The notes under the pieces are model-generated. The model was given only the letters and a program-made list of their open reading frames with translations. It was not told the DNA's origin and did not search any database. Below, piece by piece: positions 18,936 to 48,271 of a DNA stretch of 64,000 nucleotides (position 1 is its first letter; the number at the start of each line of letters is the position of its first letter). The DNA comes from Parafrankia elaeagni (lineage in GTDB: Bacteria > Actinomycetota > Actinomycetes > Frankiales > Frankiaceae). A program made the translations under genes and the position numbers. The DNA is taken from assembly GCF_000374165.1 (NCBI RefSeq), contig NZ_KB893722.1, positions 44,006 through 108,005 on the forward strand, given 5' to 3'.

Positions 18936-18949
18936 AGTAGGTGCTCACT
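18936..18949. promoter_or_regulatory. TetR-type box 1 (AGTAGGTGCTCACT)
   Basis: A 14-bp imperfect palindrome between the divergent hydrolase (starts 18903) and methylmalonate-semialdehyde dehydrogenase (starts 19003) genes. It matches the consensus AGTGAACGCTCACT shared by twelve sites in this window. With flanking bases it extends to AAGT at one end and ACTT at the other. Confidence 0.65.
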
Positions 18950-19002
18950 TCTATACTGAGGCGCAACCTAGACCGAGAACCTCCAGGCGGGAGCAGGACG
19001 GC

Positions 19003-20493
19003 GTGAGGACGATCGGACACTGGATCGACGGCAGGGCCGTCAACGAGCCCGGCCGCACGGGGCCCGTCCATGACCCGGCGCGCGGCGAGCGGACCGCACA
19101 GGTCTCACTCGCCTCCGCGGCCGTGGTCGACAGCGCGGTCAAGGCAGCGGTGACGGCGGCCGGCACCTGGTCGCAGTCATCGCTGAGCCGGCGCGCCACA
19201 CTGCTGTTCGGGCTGCGCGAGCTGCTGCACACCCATCGCGACGACCTCGCCGCCGCTGTCAGCCGTGAACACGGCAAGGTCCACGAGGACGCCCTCGGCG
19301 AGGTCGCTCGGGGCCTGGAGTGCGTCGAGTTCGCCTGCGGCATCCCGCAGCTGCTGAAGGGGTCGCACAGCGCCGAGGTCTCCCGGGGGGTGGATGTCCA
19401 CACCGTGCTGCGCCCGGTGGGGGTCGTCGCCGGCATCACCCCGTTCAACTTCCCGGTGATGGTGCCGCTGTGGATGATGGCGAACGCCATCGCCTGCGGC
19501 AACACGTTCGTGCTCAAGCCGTCGGAGAAGGACCCGTCCGCCTCGCTGCTGCTGGCCGAGCTGGTGCACCGGGCCGGCTTCCCCGACGGCGTGGTCAACG
19601 TGGTCCAGGGCGACGCCGAGGCGGTCAACACCCTGCTGACGCACCCGGACATCGCCGCCGTCTCCTTCGTCGGCAGCACTCCGGTGGCCCGGCACGTGTA
19701 CGAGACCGGCACCGCCGCGGGCAAGCGTGTGCAGGCGCTCGGCGGCGCGAAGAACCACATGGTCGTCCTCCCCGACGCCGACGTCGAGGCGGCTGCCGAC
19801 GCCGCGATCTCGGCCGGGTACGGGTCGGCCGGCGAGCGCTGCATGGCGATCTCGGTCGTGGTGGCCGTCGGCCCGGTCGCGGATCCACTGGTCGACGCCA
19901 TCGCCGCCCGTATCCCGGGCATCGTCGTCGGCCCGGCCGCCGAGGCGTCCTCGATGATGGGTCCGCTGATCAGCAGCGCGCACCGCGACCGGGTCCGTTC
20001 CTATGTGGAGCGGGCCACCGACGACGGCGCCCGGGTCGTCGTCGACGGCTCCGCCGCACCCGCCGGCGTGGACCCCGCCGGGTTCTTCCTCGGCTGTTCG
20101 CTGGTCGACGGCGTCCGGCCGGGCATGGCAGTCTACGACGACGAGATCTTCGGGCCGGTACTGTCGGTGGTGCGGGTCGACACCTACGCCGAGGCGGTGG
20201 CGTTGATCAACGCCAATCCGTACGGCAACGGGGTCGCCCTGTTCACCCGGGACGGCGGCGCCGCCCGGCGGTTCGGCGGCGACGTCGAGGTCGGCATGGT
20301 CGGCATCAACGTGCCGATCCCGGTGCCCGTCGCCTGGCACTCCTTCGGCGGTTGGAAGGCCTCGCTGTTCGGGGATGCGCCGATCTACGGCCCGGAGGGG
20401 ATCCGCTTCTACACCCGGCCGCAGGTCGTCACGACCCGCTGGCCCGACGCGACGCCGAGCGCCATCAACCTCGGTTTCCCCACCAACGGCTGA
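19003..20493 (+). CDS. mmsA: methylmalonate-semialdehyde dehydrogenase (CoA-acylating)
   Basis: The product is 496 residues from GTG 19003. It converts (methyl)malonate semialdehyde to propionyl- or acetyl-CoA with NAD and CoA, releasing CO2. Family marks include GHWIDGRAV at the N-terminus, TPFNFPVMVPLWM, SFVGSTPVARHVYETG, ALGGAKNHMVVLPDAD and the catalytic cysteine C280 in GERCMAIS. The glutamate found in hydrolytic aldehyde dehydrogenases is replaced by the GGAKN motif, as expected for the CoA-acylating branch. The palindromic box 54 bp upstream ties it to the catabolic regulon, so it may handle the last steps of the pathway. Confidence 0.93.
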   Translation: MRTIGHWIDGRAVNEPGRTGPVHDPARGERTAQVSLASAAVVDSAVKAAVTAAGTWSQSSLSRRATLLFGLRELLHTHRDDLAAAVSREHGKVHEDALGEVARGLECVEFACGIPQLLKGSHSAEVSRGVDVHTVLRPVGVVAGITPFNFPVMVPLWMMANAIACGNTFVLKPSEKDPSASLLLAELVHRAGFPDGVVNVVQGDAEAVNTLLTHPDIAAVSFVGSTPVARHVYETGTAAGKRVQALGGAKNHMVVLPDADVEAAADAAISAGYGSAGERCMAISVVVAVGPVADPLVDAIAARIPGIVVGPAAEASSMMGPLISSAHRDRVRSYVERATDDGARVVVDGSAAPAGVDPAGFFLGCSLVDGVRPGMAVYDDEIFGPVLSVVRVDTYAEAVALINANPYGNGVALFTRDGGAARRFGGDVEVGMVGINVPIPVPVAWHSFGGWKASLFGDAPIYGPEGIRFYTRPQVVTTRWPDATPSAINLGFPTNG

Positions 20494-20503
20494 CCTCTCC
20501 GCT

Positions 20504-20533
20504 CCGCGCACCGCCTGCGCGGGCGGTGCGCGG
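20504..20533 (+). terminator. probable terminator of mmsA
   Basis: CCGCGCACCGCC pairs perfectly with GGCGGTGCGCGG across a 6-nt loop, starting 11 bp after the mmsA stop. There is no U-run, which is common for actinobacterial terminators. Confidence 0.7.
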
Positions 20534-20537
20534 GCGC

Positions 20538-20565
20538 GACGGACGACGGACGACGGACGACGGAC
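20538..20565 (+). repeat. heptanucleotide repeat (GACGGAC)x4
   Basis: Four exact tandem copies of GACGGAC in non-coding DNA just after the mmsA terminator. Confidence 0.9.
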
Positions 20566-20617
20566 GATCTGACACTGCTGACCGCCTTTCGACGCGAGCC
20601 CAGGCGTCGCGTTCGCG

Positions 20618-20722
20618 CGACTAAAGAGCTTCTTGTGTCCCTCTCCGGAAACCTCTTGCCGAAGCCATGAACGGTGCTTCGCAAGCCGTCTTCGACAGGA
20701 GACACAAGAAGCTCTTTAGTCG
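20618..20722. repeat. 105-bp element bounded by perfect 22-bp inverted repeats
   Basis: The left arm (20618-20639) begins CGACTAAAGAGCTTC and ends TTGTGTC; the right arm (20701-20722) is its exact reverse complement. The 61-bp interior folds again: CTTGCCGAAGC pairs with GCTTCGCAAG with one bulge. The arms are far more AT-rich than the flanks. It could be a MITE-like mobile element, a structured RNA, or a large bidirectional terminator. A short TCGC lies next to each end, too short to call a target duplication. Confidence 0.75.
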
Positions 20723-20933
20723 TCGCAGTCGACACTCACCGCCTCGGGCAGATTCGAGGAAATCGCTGGTCAGCGACCTTTCGACGTCCTGAGACCTGTC
20801 TGCGCGACGGTAAGCCTCGCGCGGCGAACCACCGCCCCGGCCGGCGGCCGGCGGGCGGACCGCCCGAACCCGAGGGCTTTCCGGGGCCGACGGCCGTGCC
20901 GGTCACTCATCCACCGACGCGCAGCAGGCGCCC

Positions 20934-21137: not shown

Positions 21138-22292
21138 TCAGAGCAGCTCGATGATGGTCGTGTTGGCCTGGCCGCCGCCCTCGCACATGGTCTGCAGGCC
21201 GTACCGGATCCCGTTGTCACGCATGTGGTGCACCAGGGTGGTCATCAGCCGGGCGCCGGAGCCGCCGAGCGGGTGGCCGAGCGCGATCGCGCCACCGTTC
21301 GGATTCATCGCCTTCGGGTCGGCACCGATGTCTGCGAGCCAGGCCAGCGGCACCGAGGCGAACGCCTCGTTGACCTCGAACACACCGATGTCGTCGATCC
21401 GCAGGCCGGCCTTCGTCAGCGCCTTCTGCGTGGCCGGGATCGGCGCGGTCAACATGATCACCGGGTCGGTGCCGGCGAGCACCGCGGTGTGCACCCGCGC
21501 GATCGGGGTGAGGCCCAGCTCGGCGGCCTTCTCACTGGTCGTCATCAGCAGCGCGGCGGAGCCGTCGGAGATCTGCGAGGAGTTCGCCGCGGTGATCACA
21601 CCGCCCTCCTCGACCGGCTTGAACACCGTCTTGAGCCCACCGAGGCCCTCCACGGTGCCACCGCGGCGCACGCCCTCGTCCCGGACGACCGCCGTGCCGT
21701 CGGGCAGGGTGACCGGCTCGATCTGCGCGTCGAAGCGGCCCTCGTCCTGCGCGACGGCGGCCTTCTCGTGCGAGGTCAGAGCGAACTCGTCGAGCTGCGC
21801 GCGGGACAGGCCCCACCGCTGCGCGATCATCTCCGCGCCGACGCCCTGGTTCGGGAACACGCCGTTGTAGCGGGCGAGGTAACGCTCCCCGAACGGGACC
21901 TTGTCCAGCAGGGAGGAGCCCATCGGCACCCGGGACATCGACTCGACGCCACCGGCGATCACGACGTCGTAATGCCCGGCGATCAGCCCGGCGGCGGCGA
22001 AGTGCACCGCCTGCTGGGAGGACCCGCACTGCCGGTCGACGGTCACGCCGGCGACGGTCTCCGGGAAGCCGGCGCCGAGCGCGGCGTTGCGCGCGATGTC
22101 GAACGTCTGCTCACCGACCTGCCCGACGCACCCCCACACCACGTCGTCGACCAGGGCCGGATCAACCCCGGCGCGCTGGACGACGGTGCTCAGCACATGG
22201 GCCGACAGGTCCGTCGGATGCACTCCCGACAGGCCGCCGTTACGCTTGCCGACCGGTGTCCGGACGGCCTCCACGATCACTGCATCACGCAT
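21138..22292 (-). CDS. thiolase family protein (acetyl-CoA C-acyltransferase)
   Basis: ATG 22292 (MRDAVIVEAVRTPVG) gives 384 residues and fits the family start better than the longer frame. It cleaves 3-ketoacyl-CoA with CoA. The nucleophilic cysteine is C89 (VDRQCGSSQQA), the histidine is in GHPLGGSG, and the second cysteine is in MCEGGGQANTT; NEAF is also present. The length and the QCGSSQQA motif are close to actinobacterial steroid and side-chain thiolases of the FadA5/FadA6 kind, but the substrate is not fixed by the sequence. Upstream lie three palindromic 16-bp repeats and one TetR-type box. Confidence 0.93.
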   Translation of the reverse strand: MRDAVIVEAVRTPVGKRNGGLSGVHPTDLSAHVLSTVVQRAGVDPALVDDVVWGCVGQVGEQTFDIARNAALGAGFPETVAGVTVDRQCGSSQQAVHFAAAGLIAGHYDVVIAGGVESMSRVPMGSSLLDKVPFGERYLARYNGVFPNQGVGAEMIAQRWGLSRAQLDEFALTSHEKAAVAQDEGRFDAQIEPVTLPDGTAVVRDEGVRRGGTVEGLGGLKTVFKPVEEGGVITAANSSQISDGSAALLMTTSEKAAELGLTPIARVHTAVLAGTDPVIMLTAPIPATQKALTKAGLRIDDIGVFEVNEAFASVPLAWLADIGADPKAMNPNGGAIALGHPLGGSGARLMTTLVHHMRDNGIRYGLQTMCEGGGQANTTIIELL

Positions 22293-22439: not shown

Positions 22440-22453
22440 AGTAAACGTACACT
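22440..22453. promoter_or_regulatory. TetR-type box 2 (AGTAAACGTACACT)
   Basis: A palindrome extended to AAAGT and ACTTT arms, 147 bp upstream of the thiolase start and 41 bp beyond the end of the EthD gene. It probably serves the thiolase promoter. Confidence 0.65.
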
Positions 22454-22494: not shown

Positions 22495-23241
22495 CTATCC
22501 GGGCGGCTGTCCGGGCGGCGCGGCGAGCAGGAGCTCCTCCCGGACGGCGAGGAACTCCGACGGGCCGAACAGGTCCCCGCCGGCGTCCGGCGGGTTCTCC
22601 CGGAACCAGGCGACCCGCTCGGCGAGGCCGTCCTGGTCGGTGAAGTAGACCTCGTTGACGGCGTCGTACGGCCACTCCTCGCCCGCCGGGCGTGGGCAGG
22701 GGTGGTTCTGCACGTAGGCACTGCCACGCACCCGCTCCGGGATGACGGCCGGCGCCGTCGCCGCGGCCACGGGCAGCTGGCCGGCATGCGCCGCCCACAG
22801 GTCGGAGAACGCGGCGGGAGTGAGCCCCGCGGCCCGCCGGGCGAGCGCCAAATGCTTGAACCTGATGCCGCCGCCGCGCCAGCGCGCGGCGAGCCAGTCC
22901 GCACCGCGCGGGACCCGCTCCCGGGCGACCACGATCAGGGTTGCCCCGGGGGCGGTCGCCTCGTCGACCAGGGACCTCGCCGCCAGGCCCGCGGGACTGT
23001 CCAGCCAGACCTGATGGGCCGCGAACCTGGCGGCATCCGGGAACCACTCGATACCGACGAGGTCGTGCCGCGGGGACCCGAACCGGGGATCGTCCAGTGC
23101 GGTGCACACCACGGCCCGCAGCGGGCGCGCCGCGGCCGGCGCCTCTGCGACGGCGTCAGCGGCCTGCCGCCAGGCGCTCGCCACCGCTTCGGCGGGCACG
23201 GTGGCCTCGCGGCGGGTGGCGAACAGGATCCTCTTGATCAC
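22495..23241 (-). CDS. EthD-domain (dimeric alpha/beta barrel) protein
   Basis: GTG 23241 overlaps the stop of the upstream gene (GTGA) and yields 248 residues beginning VIKRILFATRREA. Two EthD-like halves are visible. The second has AARRAAGLTPAAFSDLWAAH, a proline-flanked YVQNHPCPRP, and YDAVNEVYFTD. EthD-type proteins are small ferredoxin-like-fold proteins linked to P450 or ring-degradation pathways, with unclear chemistry. It is the last gene of the seven-gene operon that starts at 32484. Confidence 0.8.
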   Translation of the reverse strand: MIKRILFATRREATVPAEAVASAWRQAADAVAEAPAAARPLRAVVCTALDDPRFGSPRHDLVGIEWFPDAARFAAHQVWLDSPAGLAARSLVDEATAPGATLIVVARERVPRGADWLAARWRGGGIRFKHLALARRAAGLTPAAFSDLWAAHAGQLPVAAATAPAVIPERVRGSAYVQNHPCPRPAGEEWPYDAVNEVYFTDQDGLAERVAWFRENPPDAGGDLFGPSEFLAVREELLLAAPPGQPPG

Positions 23242-26200
23242 TGCCGCCGGTCCCCCGCCGCCCCGGCCGTCCCTGCTGCTCCGGCCGTCCCTGCTGCTCC
23301 GGCCGCCACCGCCTCGGACCACGCGGGCCGGGTGAGGTCGGCGATCTGCTCCCGCCAGCGGGCCACGGCGGCCTCCTTGATCGGCCCGTAGCCCTTGATG
23401 GACGTCGCCGACGCCGCAAGGCGCACCAGGTCCTCATAAGGCCGGCCGGCCCAGCCGTCGGTGACGCCGTCAGCACCGCCGTCGCCGCGGGAGACAGCCC
23501 CGGTGACCAGGCGTTCGTACTCCGTGATGACGGCGCGTTCGGTACGCCGGTCCGGGTCCTGGCCGAACAGGTCGAACGGGGTTCCCCGCAGGCCCCGCAT
23601 CGCCCGCAGCACGTGGAACGCCGCTGCGTACGGCCGGCCCATCGGCAGCTTCTTCGACAGGCCGAGACGCCGCAGGGCAGGCGGGTGCAGGTGGTAGGTC
23701 AGGGTGTACGGACCGTCGATGCCCAGGCCGCGCGCGATCTGGTCGTTGTCGGCCAGCAGATGCAGTCGGGCGACCTCGTACTCGTCCTTGTAGGTGAGGA
23801 GCCGGAACCAGGACTCGGCGACCGCCCGGGTGAAGGCCCACCCGCGCGCCGCCTCGTGGTGGCCCGCTGCCGCGTCGTGGCCCGCTGCCGCGTCGTGGCC
23901 CGCTGCCGCGTCGTGGCCCGCTGCCGCGTCGTGGCCCGCTGCCGCGTCGTGGCCCGCTGCCGCGTCGTGTTCGGCGGCCGTCGCCACCAGGCCCAGGTAG
24001 CGCTCGGCGCGCGCGGCGTTCTGGTAGTCGACCGCCTGGGCGGCGCGGCGCACGATCAGGGCACGGAGCTCATCCGGCAGTCCGGCGGGCAGGACGCGGG
24101 CGGCGACGAGGCGGGTGGCCAGGGCGAACGCCGTCGGCGACGGATCGGTGAGGCCGGTCGAGGCGCCGGCCGCGCTGCCTGCTGCCGCACCGCCGGTGCC
24201 AGCCGCACTGGTCGCACCGGGCTGGTCAGCGGCGGCCAGCGCGGCCTCGACCGCGGCCGGGTCGTGGGCGGCCCAGCGGCCCCAGTCGAACGCCGCCCGG
24301 TTGTCGGCGGCGGCCCGGCCCTGGCGGCGCATGGCCACCTCGACATCGGTGAGGGAGACCGGGAGTCCGCCCAGCTGGAAGGCCGCGCCGAGCAGGACGA
24401 TGTTGGCGAGCAGGTGGTTGGCGAAGACGACCTCGGCGATCCGCTTCGTGTCGAGGAAGGCGGCCCGGTCCTCGCCGACCCGCTCGGCGATCGCCTGCCG
24501 CAGCAGCGCCGGGTCGGGTGCGGTGAGGTCGCTCTGCAGCATCGCCGCGGTCGGGGTGACGTCGACGTCCACCACGGCGAGGGTGCGCCCGGGGCTCGTC
24601 CGGTCGAGATGCCTGGGTGCCGCGGCCTGCAGGATGTCACCGGAGAGGTACAGGTCGGCGCCGCCGGAGCCGACTGTCGACGAGCCCAGCGCGGTACGGT
24701 CCGCCGCGAGCTGGAGGTGGGAGACGACCGCGCCCGCCTTCTGGGAGAGGCCGGTCTGGTCCACCCCACTGACGACGAAGCCGGCCGACTCGGCCGCGGC
24801 GGCGATGATCCGGTTCGCCGTGATCACACCGGTGCCGCCGACGCCGGTGAAGTAGATGCCGAACCGGCCCTCGACCGTCACCGCGGGCGGCGCGGGCAGG
24901 GTTCCCGCCGGGATGACCGGCCGGCCCGCAGGGGCTCCGCCGGCCTTCGCCCGGGCCCCGTCCTTCCCGTCCGCCCCGTGCTTCCCGTCCGCCCCGTGCT
25001 TCGCCCGGGCGCCGTCCTTCGCCCGGGCCGCGGCGCGTCGCCGTGCCCGGCGGTTCGGCGTGCGCGGGGTGACGGTCACGAACGACGGGCAGTCGCCCTC
25101 CAGGCAGGTGTAGTCCCGGTTGCAGGAGAGGTCGTCGATCTGGCGCTTCTCGCCGAACTCGGTCTGCCGCGGCAGCACGGACAGGCAGTTGCTCTTGGTG
25201 CCGCAGTCACCGCACCCCTCGCAGACCGCCTCGTTGATGACCACCCGCCGCGGCGGTTCCGGGAGCAGGCCCTTGCGCCGCAGGCGGCGCGCCTCGGCGG
25301 CACACCGCTGGTCGTAGATGACCACGGTCACGCCGGGCACCGCCCGCAGCTCCTCCTGCACCCGCGGCAGCTCGTCGCGCCCGAGGACCCGGGTGCCCGG
25401 CGCCCAGCGCGCCCGGCGGCCGTAGTGCTTCGGGTCCTCGGCGCAGACCACGACCCGTCGGACGCCCTCGGCCTCCAGCGCCCTGGTCATCGCCGGGACG
25501 TCCATCAGGCCGACGACGTCCTGGCCGCCCGTCATGGCGACCGCGGCGTTGTAGAGGATCTTGAAGGTGACGTTGACGCCGGCGGCGACGCTGGCCCGGA
25601 TCGCGAGGATGCCCGAGTGGCTCAGGGTCCCGTCACCCAGGTTCTGGATGAGGTGCGGCTCGTCGACGAACGGTGACAGCCCGATCCACGGCACGCCCTC
25701 GGCGCCCATCGGGGTCGGGGGCATGGTCTTCAGGTCCGCGTGGCGGGCCTCGAAGTACATGATCCCGTGGCAGCCGACGCCGCCGCCGACCAGTGCTCCG
25801 TCCGGGGCGACGGTAGAGCGGTTGTGCGGGCAGCCGCTGCAGAAGCCCGGCGGCCGGGCCGGGATGTCCAGCAGCGGCAGCAGCCGCAGCGCCGGCCGCG
25901 CCACGGGGCCGGTCGTTGCCACCGGGCCGCCGGCCGGCCCCGCCCGGTCGGCGAGGTCGGGCAGCACCCGGGTGAGGATCGCGGCCACGGCGGCCGCGTC
26001 CAGCTCGCCGGAGGAGGACGACAGCCTGCGCCCGTCCCGGTCCCGCTTGCCGGCGACGCGGACGTCCACCCCTGCCTCGTGCAGGATGGCGCGCAGCTGC
26101 GTCTCGACGAACGGCCGCTTCTCCTCGACCACCACGATCGTGTCGACGGACCGGGCGAACTCGAGGGCCGTCTCAGCCACCAGCGGGTAGGTCATCCCGA

Positions 26201-27110
26201 GCCGGAGCACCCGCACACCGGCGTGGGCGAGCCCGTCCACCGTGAGGCCGAGGTCGGTGAAGGCCTGGACGACGTCGAAGTACGTCTTGCCGGCGCACAC
26301 GACGCCGAGGCGCGCGCCGGGGCCGGCGCCGACGACACGGTCGAGCCCGTTGTGGCGGGCGTACGCCTGCGCGGCGAGCAGGCGGTGGTCGGCGACGAGC
26401 TCCTCCTGGCCGGGGACGGCATGCGCACCGACCCGCGCGATCGGAACATGCCGCCAGGGCACCCCGGCGACGATCGCGTCGGCGGCGGCGGGGTCGCTCG
26501 GGGTGTGCCGGTCGACCTCCGCGTCGACGGTGCCGATGCCGTCGGCGACGGCGGTGACGATCTTCAGCCCGACCCAGGAGCCGCTGTACCGCGACATCCG
26601 GAAGGCATGCACCCCCAGGTCGAGGATGTCCTGCTGGTCACCGGGGTACAGCACGGGCACACAGGCGTCCTCGAATGTGTACTGGCTGTCGCAGGCGAGC
26701 GTCGACGACTTGGCGGACGGATCGTCACCGCAGAACAGGACGGCCCCGCCGTGCGGGCCGGTGCCCATCGCGTTCGCGTGCCGCAGGACGTCGCCGCAGC
26801 GGTCCAGGCCCGGTGTCTTGCCGTACCAGGCGCCGACGACGCCGTCGACCTCGGCGAGGCTCTCGGCGGAGCCCATCTGGCTGCCCCAGACGGTGGCCGC
26901 GGCGAGCTCCTCGTTGAGGCCGGGGCGGTGCAGGACCCGGTGGCTGGTGAGCAGGTCGGCGAACCGCTCCAGGGTCAGGTCGAAGGTGCCCAGGGGCGAA
27001 CCCGGGTAGCCGGAGACCATGGTCGCCGTGGTCAGGCCCTCCCGGGCGTCGAGCTGTGCCCGCACGACGAGCAGGCGGGCCAGCGCCTCGACCCCGGACA
27101 GCAGGATCAC
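23238..27110 (-). CDS. indolepyruvate:ferredoxin oxidoreductase family protein, fused subunits
   Basis: GTG 27110 overlaps the preceding stop (GTGA); the product is 1290 residues. The order is that of fused 2-oxoacid:ferredoxin oxidoreductases. An alpha domain starts VILLSGVEALARLL with MVSGYPGSPLGTFD. The TPP domain (near 490) has GDGTLSHSG and ILYNAAVAMTGGQD. An iron-sulfur region near 630 has CEGCGDCGTKSNC. The gamma domain near 755 has GVGGTGVITANRI, and the C-terminal DUF6537-type region begins near 1000. It would decarboxylate an aryl or branched 2-oxoacid to acyl-CoA using ferredoxin. Residues about 1048-1083 are six HDAAAG repeats within the C-terminal region. Confidence 0.9.
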   Translation of the reverse strand: MILLSGVEALARLLVVRAQLDAREGLTTATMVSGYPGSPLGTFDLTLERFADLLTSHRVLHRPGLNEELAAATVWGSQMGSAESLAEVDGVVGAWYGKTPGLDRCGDVLRHANAMGTGPHGGAVLFCGDDPSAKSSTLACDSQYTFEDACVPVLYPGDQQDILDLGVHAFRMSRYSGSWVGLKIVTAVADGIGTVDAEVDRHTPSDPAAADAIVAGVPWRHVPIARVGAHAVPGQEELVADHRLLAAQAYARHNGLDRVVGAGPGARLGVVCAGKTYFDVVQAFTDLGLTVDGLAHAGVRVLRLGMTYPLVAETALEFARSVDTIVVVEEKRPFVETQLRAILHEAGVDVRVAGKRDRDGRRLSSSSGELDAAAVAAILTRVLPDLADRAGPAGGPVATTGPVARPALRLLPLLDIPARPPGFCSGCPHNRSTVAPDGALVGGGVGCHGIMYFEARHADLKTMPPTPMGAEGVPWIGLSPFVDEPHLIQNLGDGTLSHSGILAIRASVAAGVNVTFKILYNAAVAMTGGQDVVGLMDVPAMTRALEAEGVRRVVVCAEDPKHYGRRARWAPGTRVLGRDELPRVQEELRAVPGVTVVIYDQRCAAEARRLRRKGLLPEPPRRVVINEAVCEGCGDCGTKSNCLSVLPRQTEFGEKRQIDDLSCNRDYTCLEGDCPSFVTVTPRTPNRRARRRAAARAKDGARAKHGADGKHGADGKDGARAKAGGAPAGRPVIPAGTLPAPPAVTVEGRFGIYFTGVGGTGVITANRIIAAAAESAGFVVSGVDQTGLSQKAGAVVSHLQLAADRTALGSSTVGSGGADLYLSGDILQAAAPRHLDRTSPGRTLAVVDVDVTPTAAMLQSDLTAPDPALLRQAIAERVGEDRAAFLDTKRIAEVVFANHLLANIVLLGAAFQLGGLPVSLTDVEVAMRRQGRAAADNRAAFDWGRWAAHDPAAVEAALAAADQPGATSAAGTGGAAAGSAAGASTGLTDPSPTAFALATRLVAARVLPAGLPDELRALIVRRAAQAVDYQNAARAERYLGLVATAAEHDAAAGHDAAAGHDAAAGHDAAAGHDAAAGHDAAAGHHEAARGWAFTRAVAESWFRLLTYKDEYEVARLHLLADNDQIARGLGIDGPYTLTYHLHPPALRRLGLSKKLPMGRPYAAAFHVLRAMRGLRGTPFDLFGQDPDRRTERAVITEYERLVTGAVSRGDGGADGVTDGWAGRPYEDLVRLAASATSIKGYGPIKEAAVARWREQIADLTRPAWSEAVAAGAAGTAGAAGTAGAAGDRRQ
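23861..23968 (-). repeat. 18-bp in-frame tandem repeat, 6 identical units
   Basis: Six identical units of GGCCCGCTGCCGCGTCGT (plus strand) encode HDAAAG in the oxidoreductase. Exact identity suggests recent expansion and a high chance of length variation between strains. Confidence 0.93.
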
Positions 27111-28357
27111 GGGTACACCTCGGCGTTGACGTAGGCGAACGCCCCGTCCTTGAGGACCGCGCGGCGGCGGGCCGGATCCTGGAGCACCGTGATGTCCTCG
27201 GTCGGGTCGCCGTCGACGACCAGCAGGTCGGCGAGGTAGCCGGCCCGGATCTGGCCGACGTCCAGGCCGACGAGCGGGCCCATCGACCGGCTCGCGGCGA
27301 GGATCGCCTCGGTCGGCGTCATGCCCACCAGCTCGACGTAGCGCGCGAGCTCGGCGGCGTAGGTGCCGTGGCGGGTCCACTGGTGGCCGAAGTCGCCGCC
27401 GGCGACGATGCGGATCCCGGCCTCGCGGAGCCGCCGCAGGCCCTCGACCTGCGAGGCGAACTCCTGCCGGTACCCGGAGGCGTCGATCTTCTCGGGGGTC
27501 ACGCCCCACGGCTCGGCGTGGCCGCTGACCATCGCGTACAGGTAGTGCAGGCCCGGGCACACCCACACGTCGTCGCGGCGTGCCTCCAGCGCGCGGACCG
27601 CCTCCTCGTCGAGGAAGCAGGCGTGGTGGATGAGCCGGACCCCGGTGCGGGCCGCCATCGCCACGGCCGCCGACCCGCGGGCGTGCACCGTGATGAACGC
27701 GCCGTGGCGGTCCGCCTCGTCGACGGCGGCGGTGAGCATCTCGTCGTTCATGTACACGTCGTCGGACGGGAACTCGGGCACGATGCCGTCGCCGGAGATG
27801 AACAGCTTCAGCGCGCGCACCCCGGAGTCGCACTGCCGCGCGACGATCTCACGTAACTCGCGGGCGTCGGCGGCGACGTCCGACATCCCGCTGCCGTCGC
27901 TGATCGCGCCCGGTGAGGTGACCAGCAGGCCGCTGGCCACGATCCGCGGGCCGGGGATCAGGCCGGCGTCGATCGCGTCGCGGGCCAGCACGTCGTCGAG
28001 GGGCTGCAGGACGCCGGCCCCGACGACGAGGGTGTAGCCGCTCTCGACGAAGGTCCGGGCGACCGCGGCGACGTCCAGCGCGTGCCTGGCGGGTGCCTCG
28101 GCGGCCACACCGGAGTGGTCGAACACGAAGTCCAGCGGCCAGCTGATGTGCGTGTGCGCGTCACCGAGCCCCGGCAGGACGGTGGCACCGTGGACGTCGA
28201 CGACCCGGGTCGAGGACGTGTCGAGGTCGAGCCGCCCCCGGCTGACCTGGGCGATCCGGTTCCCGTCGACGAAGATGTCGCCGTCGGCGGGCCGCTCGCC
28301 GGGATCACCGTCGCAGGCGAGCACACGCGCGTTTCTGATCAGTGTGCGCTGGGACAT
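27107..28357 (-). CDS. metal-dependent amidohydrolase (imidazolonepropionase-like)
   Basis: ATG 28357 starts a 416-residue protein preceded by a purine-rich GAGGAG. The N-terminal beta-sandwich (IRNARVLACDG) leads to the metal site DAHTHISW, with further histidines in TVHARGS and IHHACFL and an aspartate in GGDFGHQW. It ends AGYLADLLVVDGDPTED, typical of imidazolonepropionase/prolidase-like amidohydrolases. A hydrolytic role on a cyclic amide, lactam or ester is expected, with the substrate unknown. It lies 53 bp after the alcohol dehydrogenase gene and overlaps the oxidoreductase gene by 4 bp. Confidence 0.88.
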   Translation of the reverse strand: MSQRTLIRNARVLACDGDPGERPADGDIFVDGNRIAQVSRGRLDLDTSSTRVVDVHGATVLPGLGDAHTHISWPLDFVFDHSGVAAEAPARHALDVAAVARTFVESGYTLVVGAGVLQPLDDVLARDAIDAGLIPGPRIVASGLLVTSPGAISDGSGMSDVAADARELREIVARQCDSGVRALKLFISGDGIVPEFPSDDVYMNDEMLTAAVDEADRHGAFITVHARGSAAVAMAARTGVRLIHHACFLDEEAVRALEARRDDVWVCPGLHYLYAMVSGHAEPWGVTPEKIDASGYRQEFASQVEGLRRLREAGIRIVAGGDFGHQWTRHGTYAAELARYVELVGMTPTEAILAASRSMGPLVGLDVGQIRAGYLADLLVVDGDPTEDITVLQDPARRRAVLKDGAFAYVNAEVYP

Positions 28358-28410
28358 CTCTTCGCACTCCTCCCCGAGGGAACCGGTCGCCCGCCAGAGC
28401 CGCGACGGCG

Positions 28411-31255: not shown

Positions 31256-31275
31256 ACGTCGCTTTCCTCCCTCCG

Positions 31276-32484: not shown

Positions 32485-32546
32485 ACCGACCTCCAACAGT
32501 GCGTGGGCTTCGGACGGCGCCTCGCGCGTCCTGATCCACACAATAA

Positions 32547-34847: not shown

Positions 34848-34861
34848 AGCGTACGTTCATT
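34848..34861. promoter_or_regulatory. TetR-type box 5 (AGCGTACGTTCATT), upstream of tetR
   Basis: It lies 37 bp before the TetR start and overlaps a larger inverted repeat, GAACGTA and TACGTTC, with an 8-bp spacer (34837-34858). This is the expected place for autoregulation. Confidence 0.65.
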
Positions 34862-36514: not shown

Positions 36515-36606
36515 GGTGGCACTCCCTCTGGCATCGTTTCGTGATCCCTGTTCCTGCCCCGGTCCCGGCCATGCCCCGGCCGGCCGCCCTCCGCCGGCCG
36601 GCGCCG

Positions 36607-38310: not shown

Positions 38311-38324
38311 AGTGTACGTTCACT
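38311..38324. promoter_or_regulatory. TetR-type box 6 (AGTGTACGTTCACT)
   Basis: A strong palindrome with one mismatched pair, between the divergent DUF35-thiolase-SDR set and the LLM-CoA transferase pair. It lies 38 bp from the DUF35 start. Confidence 0.7.
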
Positions 38325-38527: not shown

Positions 38528-39558
<1,031 letters not shown>

Positions 39559-39562
<4 letters not shown>

Positions 39563-41958
39563 GCGCCCGCTCAGGTCTCGGTCCCTGCGCGGGGCTGCGG
39601 GTCGTCGAGGTCGTGGTCGGGACGAGTGAGCTCGGCCTCGACCTCGCCGGCGCGGCCCCCGGCATGATCTTCGCCGATCTGGGCGCCGAGGTGGTCCGGG
39701 TGGTCGGCACATCCCCCGCCGCGATCGACGCGGACGTGACCTGGGGCCGCGCCTGGCACCGGGACAAGCGGACCGTCGCGACCGACGACGCGGGCGAGGT
39801 GCGCGCCCTGCTCGCAGACGCCGACGCGGTGCTCGTCTACGGCCCGGAGGAGCTGGTCGAACAGCGGGGGCTCGGCTTCCACGATCTCAGTCGGCGCAAC
39901 CCCCGGCTGGTGTACGCGCGCTGCCGGCCAAGCCGGACGTCGGCCGGTGACACGGCCGACTTCGGCCTGCTGGTGGAGGCCCGTGCCGGGTTCTGCAGCC
40001 AGCTCGCCGGCCACCGGCCGGGCCCGATCTTCGTCGACGCGCGGGCCTCCGGCAGCGGCGCGTCCTTCCTGCTGACCACCTCCGTTCTCGCGCTGCTGCG
40101 CCGCCGCGCCATGACCGGGACCGGAGGCTGGGCTGAGACGTCGCTCTACGACGGCCTGCTCGCCACGCTCGGCTGCATGATCGGCCGGTCGGAGCACGCG
40201 GCACCGGAGATCGAGGGCTACTGGCGGTCGGGGTCGACGTTCCCGAACTTCCTCTACCGCTGTGCCGACGACCAGCTGATCCAGGTCTGGTTCGGCGGCA
40301 AGGGGATGTACGCGAAGCTCATCGACGTGCTCGGCGACGAGCCGAGCACCGAGGGCTACTACCACGACCAGATGACCGGTCAGCTCAACGCTCGTGCCCT
40401 CCGGTGGCGCGCGCCGTTCGCGCTGCAGCCCCGGGACATGTGGATCCAGCGGCTCCGCGCGGCCGGCGTGGCCTGCGAACCGGTGCTCAGCCCCGGGGAG
40501 GCTCTCTCCGACCCACACCTGGCCGAGACCGGCCTGGCGCTCACCCGAGTGGAGAGCGGCCACCGCGACGTCCTGCTCGCCACCCCGATCGCGGTCGAGC
40601 CGCTCCCGGCACCGGCCGGCGCGAGCCCTTCGGCAGCGGGCATCAGCCCTTCGCCGGACGGCCCGGCGACCGGCGGGCCATCAGGCGGGCCGGTCGACGG
40701 GCCCTCGGGCGGACCAGTCTCCGGGTCGTCGGGCGGGCTGCTCGCCGGTGTCCGGGTGGTCGACTTCTCCGCGTTCGTGGCCGGGCCCCTGGCCGCCCAG
40801 GTCCTCGCCGACCTCGGCGCCGACGTGATCAAGGTCGAGCCGCCGGAGGGTGAGGCCATGCGTGCCGCCGCCTACGCGGTGGCGGCCTGCCAGCGCGGCA
40901 AGCGCAGCATCGCGATCGACATCGGTGCGCCCGAGGCCCGCCCGGTCGTCGAGGCGCTCCTCGGCTGGGCGGACGTCGTCGTCCACAACTTCCGGGTCGG
41001 CGTGGCCGAGCGGCTCCGGATCGACGCGGCGACCGTCGCGCACCTGAACCCGGACGTCGTCCACTGCCACGCCAGCGCCTTCGGCCCGACCGGCCCCCGG
41101 GCGAAGCAACCCGGCAACGACGCGCTGATGCAGGCCCTCACCGGGCTGGAACGGGCCGTCGGCGGCGAGGGCAACAACCCGGTCGCGCTGACCTGGATCC
41201 CGCTCGACATGTCCGGCGGCTGGGTCGCCGCCATCGGGATCCTGGCCGGTCTGTACGCCCGCGCGACCACGGGCCGGGGCCAGCGGGTGGACACCAGCCT
41301 GCTCGGCGCGGGGCTGCTCCTGCAGAGCGGGGCGTTCCTCCGCGACGGCGCCCTGGTCCGCGGGCCGGCGCTGGACGGCCGCCAGACCGGGTACGGTCCC
41401 GGCTACCGCCTCTACGAGGCCGCCGACGGCGCCTGGTTCGCTCTCGTCATCCCCGACGAAGCCGGCTGGTCACGGCTGCGCGCCCTGCCCCGGACGGGCG
41501 ACCTGCCCGGGACGGGCGACCTGCCCGCGGCCTACGTGCCCCTGCGGGGTGGAGCCGACGGCCGTGACGCCCTGGCCCGGCAGGCGGAGGCCGTCCTCGA
41601 ACAGGCCTTCGCGACCGCGCCGGGCGCCGAGTGGGTCAGCCGGCTGCGGGCAGCCGGTCTGCTGGCCGAGCCGGTCGAGCCGATGGACCGCGACGTCTTC
41701 CGCCGCCGGATCCTCGACGACCCGGTCAACCGCCAGCTCGGCCGGGTGGCGTCCTACCAGGTCACGGACTGGGGCCACTTCGAGCAGATCGGCCCGCTCC
41801 CCCGCTGCGGTCCCGCCGGCGCCGGCAGCGCCGGCAGCGGTCCGGCACTGATGCTGCCCGGCATCGGCGAGCACAGCGTCGGCGTCCTCACCGAGCTGGG
41901 GATGAGCCCGCCCGAGATCGACGCTCTGCTGGCAGGCAAGGTCGTCCGCCAGCTCTAG
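39559..41958 (+). CDS. double-length CoA transferase (CaiB/BaiF, family III) with one degenerate half
   Basis: ATG 39559 overlaps the LLM stop; the product is 799 residues, twice the family length. Both halves show the CaiB start (LRVVEVVVG and VRVVDFSAFVAGPLAAQVLAD). A Pro/Gly/Ser linker near residue 370 separates them. Family III enzymes use an aspartate five residues before an alanine in a D-x4-A motif. The C-terminal half keeps it (GNDALMQALTGL), while the N-terminal half reads DFGLLVEARAG, with glycine at that place. The enzyme may work as an intramolecular heterodimer with one active site, moving CoA onto a pathway acid. Confidence 0.88.
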
Positions 41959-43603: not shown

Positions 43604-44806
43604 CTACGCGGGCCGGACCGCGGGCCGCCGGTCGGGGATGCCGAGGAGCTCGGCGATGTTTCCCCGCAGCACCCGGCGGGTGGTCACCTCGTCGCAGCCC
43701 TCGAGCAGGCCGACGAAGTCAGCAGGCTGGCGAAGGCCCTCGGGGTGCGGATAGTCCGAGCCGAACAGCACCCGCTCCGGGCCGAGAACCGTGATGAGGT
43801 CGCGGACGTCGTCCTCCGGGAACGGGCACACCCACAGGTGTTCGGCGAGCACCTCGCTGGGCCGGGCCGGCAGACTGCCGCCGAGCACGGGACCACGGCG
43901 GCCGAGCGCGGCGGCCTTGTCCACGTTCTTCAGCAGAGGCCTGACCCAGTTGCTCCCGTTCTCGATGGAGACGACCCTGACGTTCGGGTGCCGGCCGAAA
44001 AGGTTGTGCAGGGTGAGCGCGGTCAGCGTGTCCACGATCGGCCGCTCGGTGTTGCACAGCGCCCACTGCAGCGGCGACTGCAGGTGGGACGGATTGGCCG
44101 GATCCTCCGACCACAGCGCCCCGTAGGCCAGGTTGTAGCCGCTGTTCGACACGTGGAACACGACCGGCACGCCGGCCTCGGCCACCGTGGCCCAGAACGG
44201 ATCCAGGTCTGGGTGCGCCGGTGAGCGGCCGCCCACGGGACCGGGCCGCAGGTGGACGAGCCGGGCACCGGCGTCGAGCACCCGGCGCAGCTCGGCCATG
44301 GCCTGGTCGAGGTCGAGCAGGGACAACATGGGCACGGCGAAGATGCGGTTCTGGGCCGAGTAGCCCCAGTCCTCCTCCAGCCAGCGGTTGAACGCGCGCA
44401 GGCTGGCGTAGGTCAGCTCGACGTCACCGACCATGTCCTGCTCCACCGCCACCGCCAGCGTCGGCAGCATGAGGGTCGCCTCGACACCCTGGGTGTCCAT
44501 CAGCGCCAGCCGGGCGGCACGGTGCGTGAACTCCGGGTGGTCCTTGGCGTTGATCACCTCCCGGTGGGTGAAGCCGTCCGCGACCTCGCCCATGAACAGC
44601 CCCTGCAGGGCGCCGGGAGCCGACGCGTAGTCACCGGGCATGACGCTCATGAAGGTGCGCCGGCCGCCGAGGAACACCCGCCCCAGGCCGTCCGCCCCCC
44701 GCCGCACCTGCACCGTCGCGTCCCGATACCGGGCCTCGATGTGGCGCGAGAAGCAGTCGTCCGGCTCGTAGTAGTGCCCGTCGGCGTCGATCAGGCTGTA
44801 GTCCAC
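43604..44806 (-). CDS. amidohydrolase 2 family protein
   Basis: GTG 44806 follows GGAGGTGG and gives 400 residues starting VDYSLIDADGHYYEP, the family's usual DxH start. VPVVFHVSN and VLFGSDYPHPEG near the end supply metal ligands. The family includes decarboxylases and hydrolases of aromatic and ring-cleavage products. A palindromic box 28 bp upstream and another about 230 bp upstream place it in the regulon. It is related to, but clearly different from, the product of 31276-32484. Confidence 0.9.
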   Translation of the reverse strand: MDYSLIDADGHYYEPDDCFSRHIEARYRDATVQVRRGADGLGRVFLGGRRTFMSVMPGDYASAPGALQGLFMGEVADGFTHREVINAKDHPEFTHRAARLALMDTQGVEATLMLPTLAVAVEQDMVGDVELTYASLRAFNRWLEEDWGYSAQNRIFAVPMLSLLDLDQAMAELRRVLDAGARLVHLRPGPVGGRSPAHPDLDPFWATVAEAGVPVVFHVSNSGYNLAYGALWSEDPANPSHLQSPLQWALCNTERPIVDTLTALTLHNLFGRHPNVRVVSIENGSNWVRPLLKNVDKAAALGRRGPVLGGSLPARPSEVLAEHLWVCPFPEDDVRDLITVLGPERVLFGSDYPHPEGLRQPADFVGLLEGCDEVTTRRVLRGNIAELLGIPDRRPAVRPA

Positions 44807-44834: not shown

Positions 44835-44848
44835 AGTGAACACCTATT
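44835..44848. promoter_or_regulatory. TetR-type box 7 (AGTGAACACCTATT)
   Basis: One half-site (AGTGAAC) is good and the other is degenerate. It lies 28 bp before the amidohydrolase start, the weakest of the twelve sites. Confidence 0.5.
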
Positions 44849-45035: not shown

Positions 45036-45049
45036 AGTGAGCATACACT
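45036..45049. promoter_or_regulatory. TetR-type box 8 (AGTGAGCATACACT)
   Basis: Arms extend to AAGTG and CACTT around a 6-bp centre. It is 229 bp upstream of the amidohydrolase start and beyond the terminator of the next gene, so it probably serves a longer leader of that amidohydrolase. Confidence 0.6.
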
Positions 45050-45200: not shown

Positions 45201-46841
45201 TCAGGCGCGCAGGAGCCGGCCCGGGGCGACGCCCGCGACCTCCGCACCGGCACGGCGGGTCGCCACGCCGTTCACCCACACGTGCTCGACCCCGATGCTG
45301 CGCACCACGAGCCGGTCCGCGCCGCCCGGCTGGTCGTGTACCCGCTCGACCGGGGCGGCACCGACCGTCTCCGGGTCGAAGGCAACCAGGTCTGCGTGGA
45401 ACCCGGGCCGCACGAGCCCGCGGTCGGCGACCCGGAACGCCTGGTGCGGGTGCCCGGTCAGCCGCCAGACGGCGTCCTCCAGCGTCAGCGCCTTACGCTC
45501 GCGCACCCAGTGGCCGAGCAGGTGGGTCGAATAGCAGGCGTCGCAGAGCTGACTGGCGTGCGCGCCCGCGTCCGAGAGCCCCAGCAGCGTGCGCCGGTCG
45601 GCGAGCAGCTCACCGATCTCCGCGTCGCCGTCGTTCTCCAGCACCACCCGGAAGCGGGTCGTGGCGGTGTCGGAGAGCGCCAGGTCGAGCATCAGGTCGA
45701 ACGGGGTGGTCCCCCGCCGGCGGGCCAGCTCGTCGAGCGGAACACCGACGGCGTCCTGGTGGGCGCCCGTCTCCTCGACATCGATCTTGTGCCACCGGTG
45801 CTCCCAGGCCGTGAGGGTGGCCGGCCGGGCCCGGTCGCGCCAGGACGCGTCCTGGTAGAGGGCCGGGCGCTCCTCCCGCGGGATCGCGAGCGCTTCCTTC
45901 CACTCGTCGATCTGGGCGAGCGGGACGGGGTCGGCCATGGTGATCTGCATGACGATCGGCCGGCACGCGATCTGCGGGTACACCTCGCCCGGCAGCGCCG
46001 CCCCGCGCGCGACAGTCCGCAGCGCGGCGCCCGGCTTCTCCGACCGGGTGACCAGCGCCGTCCACGTCACCGGTATGCCGTGGCGCACCGCCAGGTCGGA
46101 GAACTGGTCGACGAACAGCCCGGGCCCGATCGAGACCTGCAGGACCCCGCGGCCGGCCTCGCCGAGGACCGAGGCGAGCGAGTCGATCTCGTCGATCTCG
46201 GCGAACCGGCTCGGCACGGGACGCCCGTAGGCCCCCTGGTGGGCGGGCTGCCGCGAGGTCGAGAAGCCGATCGCACCCGCGTCCAGCGCCTCGCGCAGCA
46301 GCCCGCGCATCGTGTCGAGCTCGTCCGCCGTCGCCGGGCGCTCCTCGCCGCCGACCGCGAACAGCCGCAGCGGGGAGTGGCCGATGAAGGCGCCGACATT
46401 GAGCCGCTTGGGGCGTGCGTCCAGGGCCGCGAGGTACTCGGGGAACGAATGGAAGCACCAGTCGATGCCGGCGTCGAGCGCATCCCTGGACATCCCCTCG
46501 ACGTTCTCGAGGAGGCGCACGATGAGGTCGCGGTGCTCCGGCCGGGTCGGGGCGACACCGAAGCCGCAGTTGCCCATGATCACGCTGGTCACGCCATGCC
46601 AGCTGGACGGGGTGAGGTCGCCGTCCCAGAGAATCTGGGCGTCGTAGTGCGTGTGGACGTCGATGAAACCCGGGGCGAGCACCAGGCCGTCGAGGTCGAC
46701 GACCTCGGTGCCCGCCGCCGGGACGAGCTCACCCGGCTCGGCGACGGCGGCCACCCGGCCCTCGGCCACGGCGACCTCCGCCGGCCGGGCGGGCGCGCCG
46801 GTCCCGTCGATCAGCGTGGCGTGACGCAACAGCAGATCCAT
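45201..46841 (-). CDS. N-acyl-D-amino-acid deacylase family amidohydrolase
   Basis: ATG 46841 (MDLLLRHATLIDGTGAPARP) gives 546 residues; an upstream in-frame ATG at 46877 lacks support. It has VLAPGFIDVHTHYDAQILWD, SWHGVTSVIMGNCGFG, IGFSTSRQPAHQ and LLGLSDAGAHASQLCDA, the marks of the D-aminoacylase branch. It is similar in layout to 32684-34387 but differs enough to suggest another substrate. A palindromic box lies 43 bp upstream and a terminator follows, so it is a single-gene unit. Confidence 0.9.
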   Translation of the reverse strand: MDLLLRHATLIDGTGAPARPAEVAVAEGRVAAVAEPGELVPAAGTEVVDLDGLVLAPGFIDVHTHYDAQILWDGDLTPSSWHGVTSVIMGNCGFGVAPTRPEHRDLIVRLLENVEGMSRDALDAGIDWCFHSFPEYLAALDARPKRLNVGAFIGHSPLRLFAVGGEERPATADELDTMRGLLREALDAGAIGFSTSRQPAHQGAYGRPVPSRFAEIDEIDSLASVLGEAGRGVLQVSIGPGLFVDQFSDLAVRHGIPVTWTALVTRSEKPGAALRTVARGAALPGEVYPQIACRPIVMQITMADPVPLAQIDEWKEALAIPREERPALYQDASWRDRARPATLTAWEHRWHKIDVEETGAHQDAVGVPLDELARRRGTTPFDLMLDLALSDTATTRFRVVLENDGDAEIGELLADRRTLLGLSDAGAHASQLCDACYSTHLLGHWVRERKALTLEDAVWRLTGHPHQAFRVADRGLVRPGFHADLVAFDPETVGAAPVERVHDQPGGADRLVVRSIGVEHVWVNGVATRRAGAEVAGVAPGRLLRA

Positions 46842-46883
46842 CAGGACTCCGATCAGTGACCCACACCGTAGGGGCACAATTTT

Positions 46884-46897
46884 AGCAAGCGCTCACT
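46884..46897. promoter_or_regulatory. TetR-type box 9 (AGCAAGCGCTCACT)
   Basis: A palindrome with an exact AAGCGCT-type centre, 43 bp before the deacylase start; CACTTATC follows it. Confidence 0.65.
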
Positions 46898-47191
46898 CAC
46901 TTATCTCGGGATCCGCCCGTCCACCAGCTCTGGCCGACTCGCCGGCGGAGACCCCTGCCCAGCCCTGCCTCGTGGCTTACGGCGACGGCGACCCTCCGCC
47001 TGCGGCCACCTCCGCCGGCGGCGGACCGTCGGCCTGACAGGCGCGCGAACTCCGCCCAGCAGCGACGGTAGCTCAGCGACTGCTCACCTCACAAGATTCG
47101 GCGCCTGGCGCGGGCGCGCGAGAAGATGGCGCTCCCACAGGCGCTCTGTGGTCGCCCGGTGGACGTCCTGCGAGCAGCCCGAACAGCACAG

Positions 47192-47205
47192 AGTGTTTGC
47201 TCACT
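47192..47205. promoter_or_regulatory. TetR-type box 10 (AGTGTTTGCTCACT)
   Basis: The box sits inside a larger inverted repeat, ACAGAGTG and CACTCTGT, separated by 6 bp (47188-47209), 66 bp before the SDR start. It has the longest exact arms of the set. Confidence 0.7.
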
Positions 47206-47270
47206 CTGTTAGCATGACCAGCGCCCGTCTCGGCCACGCCGGCTCGGAGCGTTCAAGCCTCGGAGGACTC

Positions 47271-48086
47271 GTGGGATCACTGGATGGCCGCGTAGCAATC
47301 ATCACCGGTGCGAGCCGGGGGATCGGAGCGAACATCGCGCGCAGGCTCGCGGCCGAGGGCGCGGCGGTCGCCCTGGTCGCCAGAACCCTGGAGCCGGACA
47401 CCTCCCCGCTGCCCGGCTCGATCTCCGAGATGGTGCGGCGCATCCAGGCGGACGGCGGCCGGGCGGCAGCCGTCCAGGCGGACATCACCGTGCCCCAGGA
47501 TGTCGAGACCATCGTCGAACGCGCCGAGGCGTTGTTCGGGCCGGTCGACACCCTGGTCAACAACGCGGGCGTCAACTTCTACGGGCCGGCACTGGAGATC
47601 ACCCCGAAACGCTACGGGCTGATGTTCCAGATGATGGTCCACGCCCCGTTCCGACTGTGCCAGCTGGCCGTTCCGGGGATGGTCGAGCACGGCCGCGGCT
47701 GGATCGTGAACATCACGTCCAAACAGGCCCGTCACCCCATCGGCCCGCCGTACCCGGACTGGGCCAGCGACGGCTGCACCCCGTACGGCATGTGCAAGAG
47801 CGCCCTGGACCGCCTCACCACCGGCCTCGCGGCCGAGCTCGAGGGCACCGGCGTCGGCGTCAACTCCCTCGGCACCTCCGGCCTGGTGATGACCCCGGGC
47901 GTCGCCGTGGTCTCCCCGCACACCCCGGACAACGCACCGGTCGAGCCGGACAGCGCCATGGCCGACGCCACGCTGGCGCTCTGCGCCACCCCCCCGGGAT
48001 CCGTCACCGGCCGCATCACCTACAGCATGGATCTGCTCGGCCAGCCGTTCCCCGACGGCCCCTGGGCACTCTCCGCCACCTTCTGA
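47271..48086 (+). CDS. short-chain dehydrogenase/reductase
   Basis: GTG 47271 follows CGGAGG and gives 271 residues. LDGRVAIITGASRGIG is the cofactor site, VNNAGVN the NNAG motif, and YGMCKSALDRL carries the catalytic Tyr and Lys. The serine is probably in NITSKQARHP. A segment with PPYPDWASDG between the serine and the tyrosine is longer than usual. It differs from the SDR at 35627-36514. It is transcribed alone, with box 10 in its promoter. Confidence 0.9.
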   Translation: MGSLDGRVAIITGASRGIGANIARRLAAEGAAVALVARTLEPDTSPLPGSISEMVRRIQADGGRAAAVQADITVPQDVETIVERAEALFGPVDTLVNNAGVNFYGPALEITPKRYGLMFQMMVHAPFRLCQLAVPGMVEHGRGWIVNITSKQARHPIGPPYPDWASDGCTPYGMCKSALDRLTTGLAAELEGTGVGVNSLGTSGLVMTPGVAVVSPHTPDNAPVEPDSAMADATLALCATPPGSVTGRITYSMDLLGQPFPDGPWALSATF

Positions 48087-48190
48087 CCTGACCTGAACCT
48101 GACCCCGGCCCGACCGGCCCGACCGGCCCGGCCTCCGGTCTCCCGGTCGACAGCCACCCGCGCCCATGATTACGTTAATTTCGATAGAGA

Positions 48191-48204
48191 AGTAAGTACT
48201 CACC
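48191..48204. promoter_or_regulatory. TetR-type box 11 (AGTAAGTACTCACC)
   Basis: A palindrome around GTAC in an AT-rich stretch (TTAATTTCGATAGAGA precedes it), 111 bp before the aldehyde dehydrogenase start. Confidence 0.6.
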
Positions 48205-48257
48205 TATTCTTGATCACCCCGGACCAACACCCGGAGCTGGGAAGATCTTGCTCTGCT

Positions 48258-48271
48258 AGCGAGCGCTCGCT
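48258..48271. promoter_or_regulatory. TetR-type box 12 (AGCGAGCGCTCGCT), perfect palindrome
   Basis: All seven base pairs are symmetric. It lies 44 bp before the start of the ALDH-EthD-ALDH-P450 operon. Boxes 11 and 12 are 67 bp apart centre to centre. Confidence 0.7.

Follow-up and report, generated by a model that had tools for sequence, protein, structure and literature searches.

A predicted TetR repressor, its putative 14-bp palindromic operator and a candidate CoA-thioester catabolic regulon in Parafrankia elaeagni

Regulons in which a TetR protein controls catabolic genes are a known kind of system. The locus described here, a probable example of it, lies in a 64,000-nucleotide stretch of the Parafrankia elaeagni genome (contig NZ_KB893722.1, positions 44,006 to 108,005 of the forward strand; the window), which is C53:44006-108005 of a 7.59-Mb draft assembly in 135 contigs; contig C53 stops at the window end. 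The window encodes a single TetR protein, and twelve copies of a 14-bp palindromic box are found between positions 18936 and 48271. Very probably this protein is a self-controlled repressor whose operators sit at the promoters of a local regulon for the aerobic catabolism of coenzyme A (CoA) thioesters.

FadR of Bacillus and other acyl-CoA-sensing TetR repressors (KstR/KstR2, FasR) are among the closest known systems for the regulator, with the fold rank of FadR tied with those of others. For two proteins of the locus that belong to PF04909, ARO-a and ARO-b, the nearest known systems appear to be PtmU3, AibH2, SfbO and DitZ (PDB 8uyr), a likeness that covers matches to solved structures, the family assignment and the predicted ligand set. 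The dit cluster of Pseudomonas and Burkholderia for diterpenoids (resin acids), as outlined in PMC13063091 and PMC6891630, shares with the locus a DitZ-like protein, a P450, a Rieske oxygenase, a sterol-carrier-like thiolase and dehydrogenases. Unlike the dit cluster, which was compared by its described gene content, the locus has no ring-cleavage dioxygenase among the scanned window proteins. SlmA of E. coli shares the 14-bp consensus operator and similar outer half-steps, but the window protein failed the SlmA family model and the window sites are clustered at promoters of catabolic genes. Searches of open-licence PubMed Central (PMC) papers listed no account of a TetR regulon for catabolism in Frankia, nor of one combining these genes; they gave no paper on DitZ ("Ditz" being mostly a surname), and the exact motif words occurred solely in five SlmA papers.

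The palindromic box and its distribution

All twelve boxes are present at the coordinates reported in the preliminary description of the window. The box at 48258 is a perfect palindrome (14/14), and the arms of the box at 47192 reach 8 bp when extended, as can be read from the sequence. The consensus proposed with them did not hold, since it is not palindromic and the sites depart from it by 2 to 5 bases; for this reason the symmetric word AGTGAGCGCTCACT (degenerate form AGYRWRYRYWYRCT), in which purines and pyrimidines mostly alternate, is preferred. With up to 3 mismatches the original consensus proved too loose, as its 8 places comprise 7 of the 12 sites plus position 58737. Counted on both strands it gave 12 matches, compared with 3.26 +/- 1.87 (largest 10) in shuffled sequences. 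When a symmetric weight matrix is built from the twelve boxes, these are the top 12 positions of the 64 kb, and in a leave-one-out test each omitted box ranks between 2 and 13 in the window.

Own-genome DNA scanned with the matrix consisted of the window, 800 kb of background (forty 20-kb pieces of other contigs, chosen at regular spacing) and about 84 kb of targeted stretches. At 15 bits or more there are 12 matches in the 29.3-kb region, none in the window's remaining 34.7 kb and 1 in the background. At 12 bits or more the numbers are 13 (one being an overlap of the 34617 box shifted by 4 bp), 0 and 5. By the matrix the box is confined to this region of the window, in line with the earlier observation, and the similar density in unrelated DNA that had been named as evidence against a regulon was not found. 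Over the entire 7.59-Mb genome there are 8 copies of the degenerate word, 5 of them inside the region, and 2 of its reversed control. Eleven of the boxes lie outside predicted genes; the box at 18936 shares bases with the opening codons of one predicted gene start. The distances from box to gene start are roughly those claimed earlier, but several gene starts are uncertain.

The box is conserved in other actinobacteria. Relatives of tetR with 70-99% identity were found at 24 loci, the hosts being Parafrankia, Frankia, Pseudofrankia, Thermomonospora, Actinomadura, Actinocorallia, Nocardia, Amycolatopsis and four metagenome bins classed as Actinomycetota or Streptosporangiales-type bacteria. The 99% match, from Parafrankia colletiae (L012), was omitted as too close from the site-placement, blind-motif and ortholog-box counts. 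A motif search by expectation maximisation from random seeds, with the window unseen, was applied to 330 bases around the tetR start of 22 loci (L013-L034). Its best motif, AGTGTGTACACACT, recovers ten of the twelve boxes as its top ten positions in the window and ranks the other two 13 and 18. Because this motif was derived from other loci, the definition of the site is not circular. At 14 bits, the window matrix has 149 matches in the 24 loci, whereas 50 column-permuted matrices average 4.06 (largest 21). From the window and L013-L035, 148 non-overlapping boxes were collected, of which 146 lie between -40 and 450 bp before a predicted start and 1 is intragenic, although intragenic DNA makes up 82% of these sequences.

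Gene order is unlike between Frankia-type and Nocardia-type loci, yet orthologous genes keep the box. Across 23 loci a box precedes 22/23 tetR orthologs, the one exception being L035, whose match covers residues 64-224 only. The corresponding counts are 14/15 for ARO-a, 4/4 for ARO-b, 7/8 for the Rieske oxygenase, 5/6 for the alcohol dehydrogenase (ADH), 18/18 for Amidohydro_3, 14/14 for the short-chain dehydrogenase/reductase (SDR) SDR2, 7/7 for the aldehyde dehydrogenase (ALDH) ALDH1, 5/5 for the hydrolase, 2/2 for amidohydrolase 1 and 1/1 each for the thiolase and LLM. Other genes of the same loci have a box in 34 of 205 cases, some of them resembling further regulon members. Orthologs of ALDH2 have their own box in 5 of 11 cases, and within the loci examined no own box was seen at orthologs of SnoaL (n=10), IOR (2), g32 (2) or the CoA-transferase (1); most of these genes can be inner operon genes.

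The box and tetR also occur together within the family. This tetR is present in 16 of 36 family genomes. Boxes and reversed controls number 221 and 89 in these 16 genomes; in the remaining 20, where tetR is absent, they number 65 and 49 (Mann-Whitney p 5.8e-6). An ARO-a ortholog with 84-100% identity is found in 15 of the 16 and in none of the 20; the next matches have 54%. G032, the exception, has retained tetR with its two boxes as well as a short match to Amidohydro_3 (L087); the ARO-a ortholog is gone and its box count of 5 against 6 controls shows no excess. G032 therefore looks like a genome in which the pathway has apparently been lost naturally. Within about 100 kb around tetR, the closed genome G029 has 7 of its 16 exact boxes; for the closed genome G031 the corresponding count is 7 of 21, within about 124 kb. 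The large genomes show a strong expansion of PF04909 proteins related to ARO-a, the extreme being G033 with 25 matches at an E value of 1e-60 or lower. The words AGCGTGCGCATGCT and AGCATGCGCACGCT recur across numerous genomes of the Frankia family, whether these have tetR or not, and are probably an unrelated conserved element that raises the background of the pattern.

The regulon as first proposed has good support and reaches beyond the window. The three exact matches of the own genome outside the window all adjoin similar genes. On contig C59 (L036), a GntR gene and a PF04909 gene flank box 11263, box 12203 precedes a P450 59% identical to that of the window, and a weaker box (12.3 bits, extended matrix) precedes an SDR gene. 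The GntR-family gene (L036:11342-12058) is directly under its box, which makes a regulatory cascade possible. The C59 PF04909 protein (L036:10021-11148) was rejected as a further ARO, as its gene call is without the D-x-H motif and the acidic +2 residue. On contig C44 (L037), box 9927 precedes genes for an ABC importer of the branched-chain type, with a binding protein, fused permease and ATPase. Box 11661 of this contig is 39 bp upstream of a PF04909 gene whose product has all the ligand positions. At other loci boxes also head thiolases, acyl-CoA dehydrogenases, parts of ABC importers and a small ferredoxin.

The TetR protein and alternative explanations

The tetR gene (34898..35572, plus strand) encodes 224 residues with an N-terminal helix-turn-helix (PF00440, 45.5 bits, cut-off 24) and an all-helical TetR fold. 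The genome has 94 TetR_N matches and 1 of them is within the window, in agreement with the earlier statement that this is its only tetR. With a possible start at 34898, box 5 (34848..34861, 18.0 bits) is positioned 36 bp upstream, directly past the -10-like word TAAGAT, and would be the operator at the gene's own promoter. The orthologs in alignment A1 are 71-89% identical to the window protein, and the helix-turn-helix is nearly invariant in 24 orthologs. No single best relative emerges: in a fold comparison with a model of middling confidence FadR came first but was tied with EthR and others, and a profile search against solved structures found no close relative (best 3bhq, 2e-13) and no SlmA in the best 60 of 208 matches. 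Among 396 evenly drawn genomes of the phylum, with 7 first-look candidates scored per genome, the protein was found in 1, its own.

The mode of control was considered from promoter geometry. At one-sided promoters a TANNNT word begins 9 bp ahead of the box in 10 of 51 cases, against a mean of 0.5 per offset, and this spacing would place the box at the transcription start site. For this count 188 of 239 rows, with genes on both sides, were set aside. A count over all 239 oriented rows had peaks at several offsets and was discarded, since two-sided rows count twice. The protein might instead be an activator, or have a dual role like FasR, which is among its near folds; some promoters carry two boxes and some boxes are upstream of the likely -10. 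This is improbable, as at the tetR and ARO-a promoters the box is directly past a -10-like word, where a bound protein would obstruct transcription. More doubtful still is that the box belongs to another regulator, either another TetR or the GntR protein whose gene adjoins the C59 box, with tetR merely one of the targets. The genome's many TetR_N matches leave room for this, but the box tracks this tetR across genera, there is no box excess where tetR is absent, and of seven other TetR loci of the same genome that were inspected, six have no box and the seventh has a weak one (14.1 bits). Finally, a SlmA-type nucleoid-occlusion system, in which the protein would mark the chromosome for FtsZ control, is scarcely credible: the E. 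coli SlmA consensus SBScons (PMC4423959) does contain AGTGAGCGCTCACT and agrees in its outer AGTA/TACT steps with the extended logo found here, but the window TetR scores 26.9 bits against the SlmA model (cut-off 120), the boxes are clustered rather than chromosome-wide (5 of 8 exact own-genome matches within 30 kb, and clusters in both closed genomes), almost all lie ahead of gene starts, the box excess vanishes with the enzyme cluster in G032, and Actinobacteria are described in the abstract of PMC7118173 as being without the canonical E. coli Z-ring regulators.

Several observations weigh against a self-controlled repressor of a local catabolic regulon. The 10/51 TANNNT count takes in orthologous, hence related, promoters, and excludes the 188 of 239 rows. 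Own boxes are few at orthologs of the P450 (5/15) and absent at those of the second Amidohydro_3 protein, AmHyd3b (0/6). For mmsA, DUF35, LTP and SDR1 there are no orthologs in the 23 loci, and their membership comes from the window alone. The 93 other TetR_N matches of the own genome are possible alternative regulators. The 36 genomes are from one family and related, so that the co-occurrences are not independent events. The degenerate word with one mismatch shows no excess over the whole genome (112 against 111 for the reversed control), and weaker sites elsewhere therefore cannot be called from the pattern alone. The self-controlled repressor is nevertheless the preferred reading. The earlier proposal that this TetR protein controls the units around it is backed by the boxes at 22 of 23 tetR orthologs, the blind motif, the co-occurrence in 36 genomes and the helix-turn-helix, with binding itself inferred.

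Gene content of the proposed regulon and the predicted dinuclear oxygenases

The boxes precede units on both strands. Box 1 (18936..18949; 17.8 bits, rank 3 by the blind motif) lies between a hydrolase-like gene on the minus strand (18040..18948), with no Pfam match and an uncertain start (an ATG near 18903 is likely), and mmsA on the plus strand (19003..20493), for methylmalonate-semialdehyde dehydrogenase (TIGR01722, 652 bits, cut-off 448.5). Box 2 (22440..22453; 21.6 bits, an exact match to the degenerate word) is upstream of a thiolase gene assigned by Pfam (21138..22280, minus). Box 3 (32547..32560; 15.7 bits), the weakest by the blind motif (rank 18), is upstream of a seven-gene operon defined from gene calls and Pfam (22495..32541, minus). 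This operon comprises ARO-a (31276-32541), a Rieske oxygenase alpha subunit of 425 residues (29978-31255), a SnoaL-like protein (29484-29981), a zinc ADH (28411-29487), amidohydrolase 1 (27107-28324), a single-chain enzyme of the indolepyruvate-ferredoxin-oxidoreductase type (IOR; 23238-27110; NCBIfam PRK13030, DUF6537) and an EthD-like protein (22495-23241). An indolepyruvate-ferredoxin-oxidoreductase-type enzyme thus sits within an aerobic catabolic operon.

Box 4 (34617..34630; 20.7 bits) is upstream of a D-aminoacylase-like Amidohydro_3 gene (32684..34387, minus). Box 6 (38311..38324; 22.0 bits, exact match) is at a divergent promoter. The minus-strand unit (35627..38273) encodes a DUF35/OB_ChsH2 protein (37794-38273), a lipid-transfer-type thiolase (LTP; 36607-37797) and SDR1 (35627-36514), and the plus-strand unit (38597..41958) an LLM oxidoreductase with an uncertain start (38597-39562) and a type III CoA-transferase of 799 residues (39559-41958). 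The strong match in the latter is in the C-terminal half, and the protein resembles a fusion of two such domains. Box 7 (44835..44848; 17.7 bits) is near the start of ARO-b (43604..44806, minus), and box 8 (45036..45049; 21.4 bits, exact match) is 230 bp upstream of ARO-b and adjoins the word TACAAT. AmHyd3b follows (45201..46841, minus), then box 9 (46884..46897; 18.6 bits, exact match), box 10 (47192..47205; 18.6 bits), SDR2 (47271..48086, plus), box 11 (48191..48204; 16.9 bits) and the perfectly palindromic box 12 (48258..48271; 15.9 bits, exact match). The last unit (48315..53222, plus) contains ALDH1 (48315-49793), g32 (49959-50297), ALDH2 (50351-51829) and a cytochrome P450 (52005-53222) for which an ancestral CYP125, P450cam and P450cin are the closest matches.

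The term deacylases, used previously for some of these proteins, fits the Amidohydro_3 proteins as relatives of D-aminoacylase, whereas the PF04909 "amidohydrolases" bear a closer resemblance to dinuclear oxygenases. ARO-a and ARO-b score 110.9 and 100.7 bits against PF04909 (cut-off 26.4). The best solved relatives of ARO-a are DitZ (8uyr; 2.4e-66) and then PtmU3 (1e-30), and those of ARO-b are the uncharacterised structure 4dzi (2e-85) and PtmU3 (2.8e-26). According to PMC10811679, PtmU3, AibH2 and SfbO are dinuclear monooxygenases that belong to PF04909. PMC7782822 gives the AibH2 ligands as D-x-H, H, E and D-xx-H, with an acidic residue two past the last His marking binuclear members, and CoA-ligated diterpenoids as the PtmU3 substrates. 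All seven ligand and acidic positions are kept in ARO-a and ARO-b, in 16/16 close ARO-a homologs and in 5/5 close ARO-b homologs. The gene next to ARO-a encodes the Rieske oxygenase alpha subunit and not a small ferredoxin; a gene for a small Rieske ferredoxin nearby is a predictor of such oxygenases that is not strictly defining. Judged from these residues, the two proteins are probably dinuclear oxygenases that are likely mis-annotated, and their likeness to PtmU3 and DitZ suggests a terpenoid-like substrate.

Other genes of the window lie outside the regulon. A 276-residue protein (4171-5001, minus) has an OrfB_IS605 (TnpB-type transposase) match of 63 bits. A protein of 1180 residues (5330-8872, plus) combines a right-handed beta-helix with two AAA modules and a CbxX-type lid, and it forms an unusual pair with its neighbour, a DUF4132 protein of 1177 residues (8928-12461, plus).

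Proposed mechanism and significance

In the proposed mechanism a TetR dimer, or perhaps two dimers side by side, would sit on the AGTGAGCGCTCACT-like palindrome at its own promoter and at those of about ten neighbouring units and would block their transcription. When the substrate is present, an intermediate of the pathway, most likely a CoA thioester, would free the DNA and the gene set would be expressed. The P450, the Rieske oxygenase, the two predicted dinuclear oxygenases, the CoA-transferase, the LLM oxidoreductase, the thiolases, the retro-aldolase-type LTP/DUF35 pair, the SDRs, the ALDHs and mmsA would then together oxidise and shorten a hydrophobic, perhaps terpenoid-like compound. 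The earlier suggestion that all these units form one catabolic pathway is supported by co-regulation but not yet by enzymology. The joint recurrence of box word, gene set and switch protein in other actinobacteria makes a genuine gene switch for the breakdown of some oily or terpene-like compound the most likely interpretation. A more specific version is offered tentatively. The substrate could be a polycyclic terpenoid-like acid attacked as its CoA thioester by at least two amidohydrolase-fold dinuclear (diiron or Mn/Fe) oxygenases beside the P450 and the Rieske oxygenase, and satellite operons elsewhere in the genome could encode an ABC importer of the branched-chain type; the TetR protein, possibly as a dimer of dimers, would sense a CoA-thioester intermediate and make convergent use of the SlmA operator.

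With these results a poorly annotated list of genes becomes a single unit that can be tested. Its operator and its regulator are defined, and its conserved core is found again in Frankia relatives, Thermomonospora/Actinomadura, Nocardia and Amycolatopsis. They point to "amidohydrolases" that are probably O2-activating dinuclear enzymes, in a family with few characterised members. One operator word common to two TetR proteins of different families and roles would be useful for work on specificity, and the TetR protein together with its operator would be a ready sensor for finding the substrate.

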